Source: Pleomorphomonas diazotrophica (GTDB taxonomy: Bacteria > Pseudomonadota > Alphaproteobacteria > Rhizobiales > Pleomorphomonadaceae). From it: DNA of 60,771 nucleotides. Position numbers and translations under genes: made by a program. The stretch is from assembly GCF_002844595.1 (NCBI RefSeq), contig NZ_PJNW01000023.1, forward strand, positions 1-60,771, given 5' to 3'. Below the pieces are notes generated by a model that saw nothing but the letters and a program-made list of their open reading frames with translations, was not told the origin of the DNA and did no database searches. Each line of letters opens with the position of its first letter. The stretch's first letter is position 1. Of the stretch, positions 40,519 through 56,051 are shown piece after piece.

Positions 40519-40824
40519 CACGGATTCGGCGGGTCACGAGGTCACTTTGCCGGACTCCCATGCTCATATGCGGCGCACCGCCTCCGATAGGTGGCAATCC
40601 TGCCGAAGGACGATGGCACAAGGACTTGGTCGCGAAAGAGCCCGCAGCTTTCCCGGTATCTCGGCGTTCTTCTTTAAGTATATAGACTTATATGCTTTCG
40701 TATTATGCAGGGTAGTGTCAGGAATGACTGCAATTCGTGCGTGACAAAAGCAGGATTTGCCTCGACCCTTCAGGGGTGGGAAGCCGGTCTCCTCCCTGCC
40801 GGCCCCGACCTGAGGAGCCATGGC
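40519..40824 (+). promoter_or_regulatory. nifA upstream region
   Basis: A 306-base gap between the siderophore operon and nifA with no recognised gene. It has an AT-rich segment (about 40672-40708, with TATATAGACTTATATG and TATTATGC) that could hold a sigma-70 promoter. I found no FixK-type dyad and no good sigma-54 element; TGGCACAAGGACTTGG at 40612 has the wrong spacing. A ribosome site GAGGAG lies at 40812-40817. Confidence 0.45.
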
Positions 40825-42594
40825 ATGATCGTGGCAGTCCGCCAAGCGCCACGCCTCGCGCCAGCCGCGTCGGCGCCCGTTGTTCGGCGCGAAAGCCGGC
40901 AGAGCGCCGAGATGGCGCTGTTCGGCCTTTATGAGATCTCGAAGATACTCAACGCGCCCGTCCGCCTTGAGAGCATGCTGGCGAGCGTCGTCAACATCCT
41001 CACTTCGTTCCTCGCCATGCGGCGCGGCATGATCGTCGTCATCGACGAAGCCGGCGAACCGGAGATCGTCGCCACCGCCGGCTGGGCGGGCGAGGTGAAG
41101 GGACGACCGATTGACAGCCTGCCGCAGGCGGTCATCGACCGCATCGTCGCCACCCAGACCTCGCTCGTCGTGCAGGACACGGCGGCCGATCCGCTGTTCG
41201 CGGGCACGCCGGCGGCTCACGATCCGAGTCGGGTTTCCTTTGTCGGCGTGCCGATCAAGGATGACGCCAAGGTGATCGGCACGCTCAGCATCGACCGCGT
41301 CTGGGACGGGTCGGCCGACATCCGCATCGACGAGGATCTGCGCTTCCTTGCCATGGTCGCCAATCTCGTGGGGCAGGCGGTGCGCCTCCATCGCGTCGTC
41401 GCCGCCGATCGCAAGCGTCTGATCGACGAGCGGTCGCGACTTGAGAAGGCGCTCGACGAGAAGCCCAAACCGGCCCGTATCCGCATCGGGACCGGCGGCA
41501 TCGTCGGCGACAGCCCGTCGGTGCGCCGTGTCATGGAGACCATCTCCATCGTCGCGCCGTCCAACTCCACCGTGCTGCTGCGCGGCGAGAGTGGCACCGG
41601 CAAGGAACTGTTCGCCCGCGCCATCCACGAGCTGTCGAGTCGCAAGGCCAAGCCCTTCGTCAAGCTCAACTGCGCCGCCGTCTCCGAAAGCGTTCTGGAA
41701 TCCGAGCTGTTCGGCCATGAGAAGGGCGCCTTTACCGGCGCCATAGCTCTGAAGCCCGGCCGTTTCGAGCTCGCCAACGGCGGCACGCTCCTGCTCGACG
41801 AGATCGGCGAGATCTCGCCCGCCTTCCAGTCCAAGCTGCTGCGCGTTCTTCAGGAGGGCGAGTTCGAGCGCGTCGGCGGTACGCGGACGCTGAAGGTCGA
41901 CGTCCGGCTGATCTGCGCCACCAATCGCGATCTCGAGGCAGCCGTCGCGAAGGGCGACTTCCGCGCCGACCTCTACTATCGCATCAATGTCGTGCCGGTG
42001 TTCCTGCCGCCGCTCCGCGAGCGGCCGGGCGACATTCCCTTGCTCGCCCGTGCCTTTCTCGACCGTTTCAACCGCGAGAATTCACGCCGGCTAAGTATCA
42101 CCGACAAGGCCCTCGACCTTCTGGGCAAATGCTACTTCCCCGGCAACGTGCGTGAGCTGGAAAATTGCGTTCGCCGCACGGCGACGCTGTCCCGCAGCGA
42201 CACCATCCGCCGCGAGGATTTCGCCTGCGCGCATGGGGAATGCCTGTCGGCGACCTTATGGACCGGCGCCCACCACGTCACGGCCGACGAGCAACTGACC
42301 GCGCTGAAGCGCGGCGAGGTGCTGGTGCCCGGCCTGCGCCCTCCGGTTTCATCTTTCCAGCCGCCTCAGTTCGAGCCGCCGCAGAACGAGCCATCGGCCG
42401 AGGGGCATGTCTGTGAACACGCGGGTCCCGACTGCCCGGCGCTCGGCCATCGTGCGGGCGAGAAGGAACGGCTGATCGACGCCATGGAGAAGTCCGGCTG
42501 GGTGCAGGCCAAGGCGGCCCGCATCCTTGGCCTGACGCCACGCCAGATCGGCTATGCGCTCAAGAAGCACCGTGTCGAGCTGAAGCGGTTCTGA
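40825..42594 (+). CDS. nifA: NifA, sigma-54-dependent activator of nif genes
   Basis: A 589-residue regulator from ATG 40825, chosen for GAGGAG seven bases before it; an upstream start at 40705 would cross a poor leader. An N-terminal GAF domain (about 30-190) is followed by the AAA+ domain with Walker A GESGTGKELF, GAFTGA and Walker B GTLLLDEIGE, then a C-terminal Fis-like helix-turn-helix (GWVQAKAARILGLTPRQIGYALKKHRVEL). The redox signature C-X11-C-X19-C-X4-C is exact (C436, C448, C468, C473), so it is the oxygen-sensitive rhizobial type. Two more cysteines (C530, C537) lie in the variable linker. It binds TGT-N10-ACA sites. Confidence 0.96.
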   Translation: MIVAVRQAPRLAPAASAPVVRRESRQSAEMALFGLYEISKILNAPVRLESMLASVVNILTSFLAMRRGMIVVIDEAGEPEIVATAGWAGEVKGRPIDSLPQAVIDRIVATQTSLVVQDTAADPLFAGTPAAHDPSRVSFVGVPIKDDAKVIGTLSIDRVWDGSADIRIDEDLRFLAMVANLVGQAVRLHRVVAADRKRLIDERSRLEKALDEKPKPARIRIGTGGIVGDSPSVRRVMETISIVAPSNSTVLLRGESGTGKELFARAIHELSSRKAKPFVKLNCAAVSESVLESELFGHEKGAFTGAIALKPGRFELANGGTLLLDEIGEISPAFQSKLLRVLQEGEFERVGGTRTLKVDVRLICATNRDLEAAVAKGDFRADLYYRINVVPVFLPPLRERPGDIPLLARAFLDRFNRENSRRLSITDKALDLLGKCYFPGNVRELENCVRRTATLSRSDTIRREDFACAHGECLSATLWTGAHHVTADEQLTALKRGEVLVPGLRPPVSSFQPPQFEPPQNEPSAEGHVCEHAGPDCPALGHRAGEKERLIDAMEKSGWVQAKAARILGLTPRQIGYALKKHRVELKRF

Positions 42595-42598
42595 GCGC

Positions 42599-42614
42599 TG
42601 TCGGAAGTCCGACA
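42599..42614. promoter_or_regulatory. NifA upstream activating sequence for fdxN
   Basis: TGTCGGAAGTCCGACA is a perfect TGT-N10-ACA and a near-perfect palindrome, 72 bases before the -24 element. Its centre is about 105 bases before the expected start of transcription. It begins 5 bases after the nifA stop. Confidence 0.85.
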
Positions 42615-48988: not shown

Positions 48989-49627
48989 ATGCCTACCTAT
49001 CGTCCGCTGTTCGCTGCCGCGTTGGCCTTCTGCCTTTCCTCCTGCGGCGCCGTGCCGCTCACCTCCTTACCGAGCCTTGCCCGCATCGATCCGCGCACGA
49101 CCGATTTCTCCGTCATGATGGTCGCTCTGGCCGCTCCCCGGTCCATCGACGCGGTCGCCGGCAGCGTGCATGTCGAGTTCAAGAGCCGCGTTGATGACGC
49201 GCCGGAAAGAACGGACACGTTCGTGCTCGCCCCCACGACGGCACCCGTAGACCTCACCGACATGGTGGGCACGCTGCGCGAAAGCGAAAGCCTCTCTATC
49301 TACGCCCTGCCGCCGGAGGAAGCCGCCCGCCTGACCATCGCCCGCGACCAGCTGATTGCCGAGCGGGCGGCCGGCCACAAGGTGACGGCATCGATCGGCG
49401 TGACGGCGCGAAGCTTCTGTCTGGCCGGTGTGGTGCCGGCCGGCGATCTCCTGATCACCACCTATCTTCGCACTTCGGAAACCCAACGCTTCGTACCGCT
49501 GGTCCGCGATTTCGATCTCGCCTCGCAGCCCGATCTCACCGCCAGCCTCAGAACGCTGCCGCCCTGCTCCTCGGGCGCCGCAAAACCCGCGATATCATCG
49601 GTCGACGCGTCGCAAACCCGACAATGA
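48989..49627 (+). CDS. Lipoprotein of unknown function inside the nif cluster
   Basis: A 212-residue protein with a signal peptide ending in lipobox LSSC (AALAFCLSSC), then a mature region with no known family. The mature part has repeated beta-strand-like segments (DFSVMMVALAAPRSIDAVAGSVHVEFKSRV, HKVTASIGVTARSFCLAGVVPAGDLLITTYLRTS). It lies between nifHDK and nifE but is not obviously part of either; its own AT-rich upstream region (48905-48988) could hold a promoter. Its 3-prime end overlaps the NifA site of nifE. A role in nitrogen fixation is unproven; it may be a bystander. Confidence 0.7.
   Translation: MPTYRPLFAAALAFCLSSCGAVPLTSLPSLARIDPRTTDFSVMMVALAAPRSIDAVAGSVHVEFKSRVDDAPERTDTFVLAPTTAPVDLTDMVGTLRESESLSIYALPPEEAARLTIARDQLIAERAAGHKVTASIGVTARSFCLAGVVPAGDLLITTYLRTSETQRFVPLVRDFDLASQPDLTASLRTLPPCSSGAAKPAISSVDASQTRQ
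49608..49623. promoter_or_regulatory. NifA upstream activating sequence for nifE
   Basis: CGTCGCAAACCCGACA fits NGT-N10-ACA with one mismatch (C for T). It lies about 138 bases before the expected start of transcription and inside the end of the lipoprotein gene. A second near match, TGTCGCAGGTTCCGCA, is at 49630. Confidence 0.55.
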
Positions 49628-53925: not shown

Positions 53926-54525
53926 TCAGAAGGTCGGCAGGAGCGGCACGACGTTGCCGCTCTCCGCTTCCATCCGGGCAAGCATCTTCCGGCGCCGCTG
54001 ATCGGTCTCCTGCCACCAGGCGCGTACGACGCGCAGGCGGCAGGCGAGGAGGGTGCCGATGCCGCCGGTGAACCGCAGCCAGGCCTCCACGTCTTCCCGG
54101 CGGATGGCGGTCAGAACGGGCAGGCCGAAGGCGGCCAAGGTGCCGAAGGCATCGGCACGGCCGCCGCCGGCAATCTCGGCCGCGCCGAAGCGAGGGATGA
54201 TGGCGAGATCGGCCTGCGCTTCGATGGCTGCGCAGATGCGGCGTGTCATCGCGGCAATCTCGCCTGGAGCAAGGGAAATGCGTGGTTGCCGCCAGCAATC
54301 GCCGGTCAGGAGATCGGCCGCGGTCACCTCTCGGCTCGGCGGCTCGTCATCCGGCAGATGGATGGTGCCTCCGACCCGTCGTCCCGCGGTCCGCAGTTCT
54401 TCGGTGAAGAAGGCAATGAGATGGTCCACCGAAGCCCCCTCATCGAAGACGATCGCCGCAAGCTCGGACGCGTTGATCCCGAGAGGATCGAGAGCTGGAA
54501 AACGATCAAGCAGGCGGCGAGTCAT
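53926..54525 (-). CDS. DUF2478 protein, molybdenum-linked
   Basis: A 199-residue protein of DUF2478, a family often encoded with molybdate transporters and Mo-enzyme genes. Motifs are ELAAIVFDEGASVDHLIAFFTEELRTAGRRVGG and ADLAIIPRFGAAEIAGGGRADAFGTLAAFGLPVLTAIRREDVEAWLRFTGG. The fold is thought to be a P-loop relative without the loop. Its start at ATG 54525 follows AGGGAGCACCC. It diverges from the molbindin gene, with a predicted Mo-box between them. Confidence 0.8.
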   Translation of the reverse strand: MTRRLLDRFPALDPLGINASELAAIVFDEGASVDHLIAFFTEELRTAGRRVGGTIHLPDDEPPSREVTAADLLTGDCWRQPRISLAPGEIAAMTRRICAAIEAQADLAIIPRFGAAEIAGGGRADAFGTLAAFGLPVLTAIRREDVEAWLRFTGGIGTLLACRLRVVRAWWQETDQRRRKMLARMEAESGNVVPLLPTF

Positions 54526-54594
54526 GGGTGCTCCCTGTCGGACGCGAGGCTGTGGTGACGAGTGTCTCGCAAAGGCTGGGCCAACCGCTTCAAG

Positions 54595-54618
54595 CGTTAT
54601 GAAAATTGCTATATAACG
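54595..54618. promoter_or_regulatory. Predicted ModE-type Mo-box
   Basis: CGTTAT-N12-ATAACG (24 bases) has the same arms and spacing as the ModE operator of Escherichia coli modA and the Mo-boxes of Rhodobacter. It lies in the 125-base gap between the divergent DUF2478 and molbindin genes, 33 bases before the latter. Molybdate-bound ModE (or MopA/MopB) would be the likely binder; no modE gene lies in the window. Confidence 0.75.
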
Positions 54619-54650
54619 AAACACGACTTCGCAACCCAACGGAGATGAGC

Positions 54651-54863
54651 ATGCGACTTTCGGCACGTAACATATTGAAGGGCAAGGTCGTGGCGCTGAC
54701 GCGAGGCGCCACCACCACCCACGTCAAGGTGGAAGTCGTTGACGGCATGGTCGTGACCGCCTCGATCACCAACGAGGCGGCGGATGACCTGGGACTGGCG
54801 GTCGGCATCGACGCCGCCGCCATCATCAAGGCTTCGGACGTGATGATCGGCGTCGACGCGTGA
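54651..54863 (+). CDS. mop: Molbindin, molybdenum-pterin-binding protein
   Basis: A 70-residue protein consisting of one TOBE/Mop domain: MRLSARNILKGKVVALTRGATTTHVKVEV...SITNEAADDLGLAVGIDAAAIIKASDVMIGV. It stores or buffers molybdate as a hexamer. ATG 54651 is six bases after GGAG; ATG 54645 is too close. It is under a predicted Mo-box and just upstream of nifQ, so molybdenum storage and delivery genes are grouped. Confidence 0.92.
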   Translation: MRLSARNILKGKVVALTRGATTTHVKVEVVDGMVVTASITNEAADDLGLAVGIDAAAIIKASDVMIGVDA

Positions 54864-54871
54864 CCTGATCC

Positions 54872-54886
54872 CGGCACGGTCTTTGC
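54872..54886 (+). promoter_or_regulatory. Sigma-54 promoter of nifQ
   Basis: CGGCAC-GGTCT-TTGC keeps GG-N10-GC; only the first T of TGGCAC is C. It begins 9 bases after the mop stop. Transcription would start near 54897. Confidence 0.6.
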
Positions 54887-54933
54887 GCTGCCCCTCCTTG
54901 ATTGCTCCGGAAACTCGCCAGGCGGCTTTCGCC

Positions 54934-54949
54934 TGTCGGATTCCCGACA
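54934..54949. promoter_or_regulatory. NifA site downstream of the nifQ promoter
   Basis: TGTCGGATTCCCGACA is a perfect TGT-N10-ACA, identical to the site before iscA. It lies 48 bases downstream of the candidate -12 element, inside the predicted leader, and ends 19 bases before the nifQ ATG. Confidence 0.7.
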
Positions 54950-54968
54950 GAGATGAAGGAGGTGGCAC

Positions 54969-55598
54969 ATGCCGGCGTCGACCTTTGCCCGTCACTATGC
55001 GGAGATTCGCATCGCTGCCGGTCCGGCGCATGACGAGACGGAGGCGTTCGACAGCCATGTTCTCGCTGCCATTCTCGCGTCGGCTCAGACCGAGGCGGAC
55101 ATGAGCGGCGTCGGTCTTGCCGATGGCCTTGGGCTCTCGAACCCAGAGATTGCCCGTCTCGTCGATTGTCACTTTCCCCGCTGGCACCCGGCCGGCTTCG
55201 CCGATCTGGCTTCCGGCGCTCCTTCGGATGAGGAAACGCTTCTCATCGATCTTCTGTTGGCTCACCGGTCCGGACCGGAGCCCGTCGCGGGCTGGCTCGC
55301 CGTCATGATCGCCCGCCGGGCCATGCGGCCCGATCACCTCTGGCAGGATCTCGGACTGAACGATCGCGGCGAGCTCAATCGTCTTCTCGCGCGCCATTTC
55401 CGTAGCCTGCACGCCGGCAATACCGGCAACATGCGCTGGAAGAAATACTTCTACCGCGTGCTCTGCGAGGCCGAGGGCTTTTCGCTTTGTGCGGCGCCCT
55501 CCTGCGCCGTCTGTACAGATTTCAACAACTGCTTCGGCGAGGAAGATGGCCTCAGCCGGCTGGCCGATCTGCGCCGACGTGTGGAGCTGGCCGCCTGA
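54969..55598 (+). CDS. nifQ: NifQ, molybdenum donor for FeMo-cofactor
   Basis: A 209-residue iron-sulfur protein that supplies molybdenum to NifEN. The signature C-X4-C-X2-C-X5-C is present near the C-terminus (LCAAPSCAVCTDFNNCFGE). Other family segments are AFDSHVLAAILASA, HFPRWHPAGF and NTGNMRWKKYFYRVLC. GAAGGAGG lies six bases before ATG 54969. It sits downstream of mop and upstream of iscA. Confidence 0.95.
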   Translation: MPASTFARHYAEIRIAAGPAHDETEAFDSHVLAAILASAQTEADMSGVGLADGLGLSNPEIARLVDCHFPRWHPAGFADLASGAPSDEETLLIDLLLAHRSGPEPVAGWLAVMIARRAMRPDHLWQDLGLNDRGELNRLLARHFRSLHAGNTGNMRWKKYFYRVLCEAEGFSLCAAPSCAVCTDFNNCFGEEDGLSRLADLRRRVELAA

Positions 55599-55612
55599 GT
55601 TGTCCAGGGTCG

Positions 55613-55628
55613 TGTCGGATTCCCGACA
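55613..55628. promoter_or_regulatory. NifA upstream activating sequence for iscA
   Basis: TGTCGGATTCCCGACA, a perfect TGT-N10-ACA with the same sequence as the nifQ site. Its centre is about 74 bases before the expected start of transcription, closer than usual. Confidence 0.82.
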
Positions 55629-55667
55629 TGTCGAGCTGTCCATAAACAATTACAAAGGGTTAGGTCC

Positions 55668-55682
55668 TGGCATACCCTGTGC
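55668..55682 (+). promoter_or_regulatory. Sigma-54 promoter of iscA-nifW-draTG
   Basis: TGGCAT-ACCCT-GTGC with GG-N10-GC geometry; the -12 has GTGC for TTGC. Transcription should start near 55694, about 37 bases before the iscA ATG. Confidence 0.75.
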
Positions 55683-55730
55683 AACACGGATACCGACGTC
55701 TTCGCTCACCCAAATACGAGAGACAGTTCC

Positions 55731-56051
55731 ATGATCGAACTCACCGACAATGCAGTCGACGCCGTGCGGACCGCGCTTATCGGGGCCGGTGATCGGGCGG
55801 AGGGCCTGCGCATCGTCGTCGAGGCCGGCGGCTGCGCCGGTCTTCAATATCGCATGGGCCTTGAGAAGGATGAGCGTCCCGGCGACCTCGTTCTGGAACA
55901 GGGCGGCATCAGGCTCTATCTCGATGCGCTTACGCAGCGCCATATCGGAGGCCTCGTGGTCGACTTCATCGACGGCGTCGAGCAGTCGGGTTTCGTTTTC
56001 GACAATCCCAACGCCGCCTCCCGCTGCTCCTGCGGCAAGTCTTTCTGCTGA
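55731..56051 (+). CDS. Nif-associated IscA/HesB iron-sulfur carrier
   Basis: A 106-residue A-type carrier. The three cysteines are C35 (EAGGCAGLQY), and C99, C101 and C106 in CSCGKSFC. It assembles or delivers iron-sulfur clusters, here with a NifA promoter, so for nitrogenase. Similar genes are called iscN or nifIscA. It is the first gene of iscA-nifW-draTG. ATG 55731 follows GAGAGACAGTTCC. Confidence 0.92.
   Translation: MIELTDNAVDAVRTALIGAGDRAEGLRIVVEAGGCAGLQYRMGLEKDERPGDLVLEQGGIRLYLDALTQRHIGGLVVDFIDGVEQSGFVFDNPNAASRCSCGKSFC

Follow-up and report, generated by a model that had tools for sequence, protein, structure and literature searches.

We found that nifQ of Pleomorphomonas diazotrophica is preceded by a predicted sigma-54 promoter whose NifA-type site lies downstream, in the 5' leader of the gene, and sequence comparison suggests that NifA probably activates the promoter from this downstream enhancer. 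The features concerned, all on the plus strand of the window (the whole stretch of 60,771 nucleotides that was analysed), are the following.

40705-42594, plus strand: nifA (TIGR01817, 1.4e-228)
54651-54863, plus strand: mop, molybdenum-pterin binding, TOBE (PF03459, 6.3e-15; TIGR00638, 3e-20)
54872-54886, plus strand: sigma-54 (-24/-12) element CGGCAC-GGTCT-TTGC (CGGCACGGTCTTTGC), the predicted nifQ promoter
54898, plus strand: predicted transcription start, 12 nt past the -12 C, placed by the usual sigma-54 geometry
54934-54949, plus strand: TGTCGGATTCCCGACA, a NifA-type palindrome inside the nifQ leader, the proposed downstream enhancer
54956-54962, plus strand: nifQ Shine-Dalgarno sequence AAGGAGG, read from the letters
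54969-55598, plus strand: nifQ (PF04891, E 3.8e-51)
55613-55628, plus strand: second palindrome, an identical 16-mer, in the normal upstream order before the promoter of the iscA-like gene
55668-55682, plus strand: TGGCATACCCTGTGC, a sigma-54-like element belonging to the iscA-like gene
55731-56051, plus strand: iscA/hesB-like gene (PF01521, 1.7e-16; TIGR00049)

The nifQ element begins after the 8 bases that follow the mop stop at 54863, mop being the gene directly upstream in the window. It has one mismatch to TGGCAC-N5-TTGC, thus agreeing with nine of the ten consensus bases, and keeps the GG-N10-GC spacing. The palindrome follows 47 bases further on and ends 19 bases before the nifQ ATG (54969); its arms, TGTCGG and CCGACA, are perfect complements around a central ATTC that is not complementary, and it conforms to TGT-N10-ACA with the same letters as the site upstream of the iscA-like gene. 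A sequence-only reading of the window had located the element after the mop stop and the palindrome 19 bases ahead of nifQ, in both cases correctly to the base, and its observation that the NifA site stands downstream of the promoter, contrary to the usual upstream order, holds for nifQ. Given a start at 54898, the palindrome would occupy +37 to +52. Besides nifA, the genome carries rpoN (Sigma54_DBD, 3.7e-70). On the proposed mechanism, nifQ would be served by its own sigma-54 promoter, and NifA, occupying 54934-54949 beyond that promoter, would reach the closed complex of sigma-54 polymerase from downstream and open it through ATP hydrolysis, after which the elongating polymerase would have to pass over NifA or displace it. 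We infer NifA binding, the direction of its effect, the start site and the displacement of NifA.

The sigma-54 element by itself is little proof, and matches with up to two mismatches occur 75 times in the window against 60 expected. The palindrome is less common: TGT-N10-ACA occurs ten times (4.1 expected; none of 100 shuffles reached ten), and the 16-mer with up to three mismatches has five matches at four places (0.69 expected; none of 100 shuffles reached five). TGTCG-N6-CGACA is found at 11 sites in the 4.5 Mb assembly, four of them inside the window. It is because of its conservation, however, that the pair of promoter and palindrome goes beyond chance.

Loci of relatives were collected by nifQ protein search, which was positive for 22 of 60 genomes, including the window genome and all 13 congeners. 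Promoter followed by palindrome was the order in 14/14 Pleomorphomonas nifQ loci (in one of which the palindrome deviates by one base), and it recurred in G017, from another genus of the same family, and in G291 (locus L025), an Ancalomicrobiaceae MAG from a second family (f27), which makes 16 genomes. The start-to-start distance between promoter and palindrome was 61-64 in 15 of these 16 loci and 51 in G017. Over the 14 genus members, the ten specified promoter bases were 98.6% identical and the 5+5 palindrome bases 97.1%, whereas identity was 70% in the promoter N5, 72% both in the middle six bases of the palindrome and in the spacer between the two elements, and 62% at the 4-fold sites of a core nifQ stretch. 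The base at -26 was C rather than T in 15 of the 16 promoters and G in the remaining one (L014); L014 also had CGT in place of TGT, and in L005 one of the arm pairs was G-T. Between palindrome and ATG, the stretch that includes the ribosome site was 85% identical within the genus, and it measured 19 bases in 14/16 loci, among them G017, whose promoter stands closer to the palindrome by about 12. Distance is thus conserved to the promoter and to the ATG alike, and since the sequence of this stretch is kept as well, the ribosome site may account for part of the constraint.

Scanning 102 loci (L002-L103), we found the downstream layout in 17 with L014 included (L009 and L024 represent one and the same contig), the usual upstream order in five (L020, L042, L059, L064 and L091), and no such pair within 500 bases in 80, several of which have little upstream sequence. 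The nifQ cluster of M. loti is reported to be without a NifA promoter (PMC3538637); together with the five loci in the usual order, this indicates that the downstream layout is local to some lineages. A strict site upstream was absent within 1 kb from all 23 loci with the pattern, two of them having one beyond 1.1 kb. When degenerate upstream sites were allowed (up to one mismatch, at least 6/8 symmetric), 15/16 nifQ loci had none within 400 nt and L014 had one poor candidate. Other candidates were also discarded. An alternative promoter past the palindrome, TGGCAC at 54963-54968, has no correctly spaced -12 and reads TGACAC in 10/13 congeners, and a search of 54500-55800 for a sigma-70 promoter or terminator in the gap gave no such promoter and a single terminator-like match, inside nifQ.

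The layout was also searched for genome-wide with a strict pattern, GGCAC-N5-TTGC followed after a gap of 25-55 by TGTCG-N6-CGACA. Within the family it occurred in 13 of 20 genomes, once in each and always in the nifQ leader, G006 and G012 escaping it owing to variant letters. Across the order it occurred at 23 places in 22 of 397 genomes, and the reversed control had no match in the table; gaps of 1-24 gave nothing in the 397 genomes, nor did gaps of 56-86, for which there was one control match. In a class-wide sample of 385 genomes, only the window genome carried the strict pattern. Fourteen of the 23 places belonged to nifQ (12 Pleomorphomonas, G017 and G291) and six to nifE in f27 genomes, with a spacing of 40-41. 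The others comprised an FeoA-domain gene in G153 (L152:1501-1567), with a sigma-54 element and a downstream NifA-type site at a spacing of 52, a hint that iron uptake might be under NifA; in G342, an imelysin-family gene (spacing 42), a doubtful case as the gene starts about 230 bases further on; and, in G356, a frame with no Pfam or NCBIfam match (spacing 52).

The nifE loci of f27 were retrieved by protein (L156 nifE, TIGR01283, 8.9e-201) and not by pattern, and were obtained from 13 of 15 genomes. Seven of the 13 had the downstream site at 40-41, six in strict form and L164 with CGT for TGT. Five leaders (L167-L171) had no leader site and no strict site in the 400 bases upstream (335 in L168), although CGACA and TGTCG half-sites could be seen by eye in their upstream regions and L170 had a one-mismatch site at -147; the L173 locus is situated at the end of its contig. 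In the window itself, nifE shows the conventional arrangement: a site with the CGT variant (49608-49623) precedes a perfect sigma-54 element (49728). From these mixed layouts, the NifA-type site appears to have switched sides among relatives. That a lack of free upstream DNA caused the relocation is a guess, and it stays one, since the room upstream is alike in both kinds of f27 nifE locus (8-83 bases from the open frame with the palindrome versus 11-116 without). At several upstream nif sites, among them those at 42599 and 49608 of the window, there is a third half-site of the form CGACA-N5 or N6-TGTCG, which by eye is absent from the downstream nifQ sites.

The surroundings of nifQ bear on which gene the palindrome serves. 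Downstream of nifQ, an iscA-like frame (motif CSCGKSF) was present in 16/16 loci, and in all 16 a NifA-type site stood upstream of its sigma-54-like element, 54-62 bases start-to-start; compared with the nifQ sites, some show weaker symmetry (L003, L012 and L015). The two arrangements coexist in the same loci, which provides an internal control: the same genomes use one kind of site in both orders. In the DNA upstream of the promoter, tblastn detected mop throughout the genus (14 members) and in L025. It adjoins nifQ in three (the window, L003 and L008), and modD sits between the two in the other 11 and in L025 (TIGR01334 for L006), the layout of promoter and palindrome being alike with or without modD; in 9/13 congeners the promoter begins 2-3 bases past the modD-like frame. 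DUF2478 lies further upstream in the 14 genus members and in L025, where the locus end often truncates it. In front of this divergent gene the window has a minus-strand sigma-54-like element, TGGCCCAGCCTTTGC (54569-54583); L003 has it too, and L008 has a variant of it, these two being the congeners in which the scanned range takes in this place. Between DUF2478 and mop, CGTTATGAAAATTGCTATATAACG (54595-54618) resembles a ModE/Mo-box, and mop may thus be regulated by molybdate.

It could be argued from these neighbours that nifQ is transcribed by read-through from mop (from modD in congeners) and that the palindrome is a remote enhancer of iscA, about 730 bases downstream, or of the divergent DUF2478 gene. 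The constant presence of the iscA-like frame after nifQ, that of DUF2478 and mop upstream throughout the genus, and the minus-strand element before DUF2478 are in keeping with this explanation. We consider it very unlikely, however: a separate site stands close to the iscA-like promoter in 16/16 loci, G017 keeps the layout although DUF2478, mop and modD were all not found within 1.4 kb upstream, and the f27 nifE cases concern another gene.

If the leader site does act on nifQ, it could do so in either direction, and the sequence-only reading had offered both, a downstream enhancer first and repression by leader-bound NifA second. The order and spacing kept in 16 nifQ loci across a diverged spacer, the lack of an upstream site in range and the recurrence at nifE favour the first, that is, activation. 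Repression would mean that NifA on the leader brakes nifQ by blocking elongation while initiation at the promoter depends on NifA in its unbound state or on a different enhancer-binding protein. The palindrome would indeed be transcribed, and a protein bound at such a position can act as a roadblock; the search for NifA-type sites revealed no second activator site upstream. Yet the distance to the promoter is kept despite the divergence of the spacer and is confined to 40-64 in the 397 genomes, and since a roadblock should tolerate many distances, a NifA roadblock leaves this tight spacing unexplained. For these reasons we regard repression as unlikely and activation from downstream as the better reading of the site.

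The spacings of the downstream layout clustered at 40-42, 51-52 and 61-64, with successive clusters differing by roughly one helical turn. With a period of 10.5 bp, a circular test gave R 0.93 (p 0.0003) for seven hand-chosen groups and R 0.91 (p 0.007) for the five left without two doubtful genes, the groups sharing ancestry in part. Helical phasing of the downstream sites is therefore suggestive; the upstream spacings of the iscA-like genes (54-56 and 61-62) showed no whole-turn steps. Tentatively, some diazotroph lineages might have relocated NifA enhancers downstream at more than one gene (nifQ, nifE and the FeoA-domain gene) in spacing steps of about 41, 52 and 63, so that NifA would activate from a fixed face of the DNA with no long loop, and the polymerase, by displacing its own activator, would make the promoter self-limiting.

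A further explanation is that the palindrome only looks like a NifA site and is instead a hairpin of the leader RNA that affects translation or stability of the nifQ and nifE mRNAs. The distance of 19 bases to the ATG, kept in 14/16 nifQ loci, agrees with it, and so does the behaviour of the flanking arms, which can pair over the ribosome site: in the 16 nifQ leaders a leader's own arms paired better than swapped ones (permutation p 0.0009, uncorrected for relatedness), and among nifE leaders pairing was better than that of shuffled arms (z < -1) in 6/7 with the palindrome versus 1/5 without, the arms of the latter being defined by halving the leader. The same swap in 12 nifE leaders, on the other hand, gave p 0.12, and an Rfam search gave no match. 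We also compared the base pairs of the palindrome in 23 downstream sites that had all been located through protein searches (16 nifQ and 7 nifE). Pairs 2-5 were nearly invariant and unchanged in type except for one G-T, an invariance that is uninformative on covariation; pair 1 was broken in 2/23, and pair 6 in 5/23, with one C-G exchange. That TGTCG and CGACA are kept while pair 6 is lost in five sites fits a DNA site with TGTCG half-sites, and the identity of the window palindrome to the iscA upstream site also speaks against an RNA element. We therefore find it improbable that the palindrome is a hairpin in place of a NifA site; an effect of the leader RNA added to that of the DNA site is possible. 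In the f27 nifE leaders (L161-L172), the arms that pair over the ribosome site are of the CCCCTC/GAGGGG kind. A hairpin inside the spacer between promoter and palindrome, striking by eye, proved no better than shuffles in the 16 nifQ and 12 nifE leaders, which likewise lends nothing to an RNA reading.

NifA is the textbook activator from upstream enhancers, and a conserved downstream site departs from that picture. It offers a natural system for studying how an AAA+ activator on the opposite side of the promoter makes contact with sigma-54, and what follows when the polymerase has to get past it, and the tight, possibly phased spacing and the paired upstream site in the same loci add to its value. 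In practical terms, promoter scans limited to upstream sites will miss nif genes. Among the matches listed in the open-licence literature there was no case of a downstream NifA enhancer, a weak absence given that most subscription papers lie outside that scope.

With the canonical NifA-dependent sigma-54 promoters, of the nifH, nifE and iscA type, nifQ shares the -24/-12 element, the TGT-N10-ACA site and the presence of nifA and rpoN. It differs from them in that the site is in the leader, downstream, whereas in the same loci the site of the iscA-like promoter lies upstream. The closer likeness is to sigma-54 promoters with an enhancer-binding protein site downstream, for which FleQ reportedly provides a precedent; the regulator, the genes and the DNA motif of the FleQ system differ from those of nifQ, and the downstream position is what they share. 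Like promoters of the FleQ or RocR kind, nifQ has an activator-type site downstream of its sigma-54 element and none upstream in range, the site here being of NifA type. In Bacillus subtilis, RocR activates the sigma-54 promoter of rocG from a downstream enhancer (PMC4941409). The enhancer of rocG lies 1.5 kb downstream, whereas the predicted NifA site of nifQ is in the leader, 47 bases past the -12 element.
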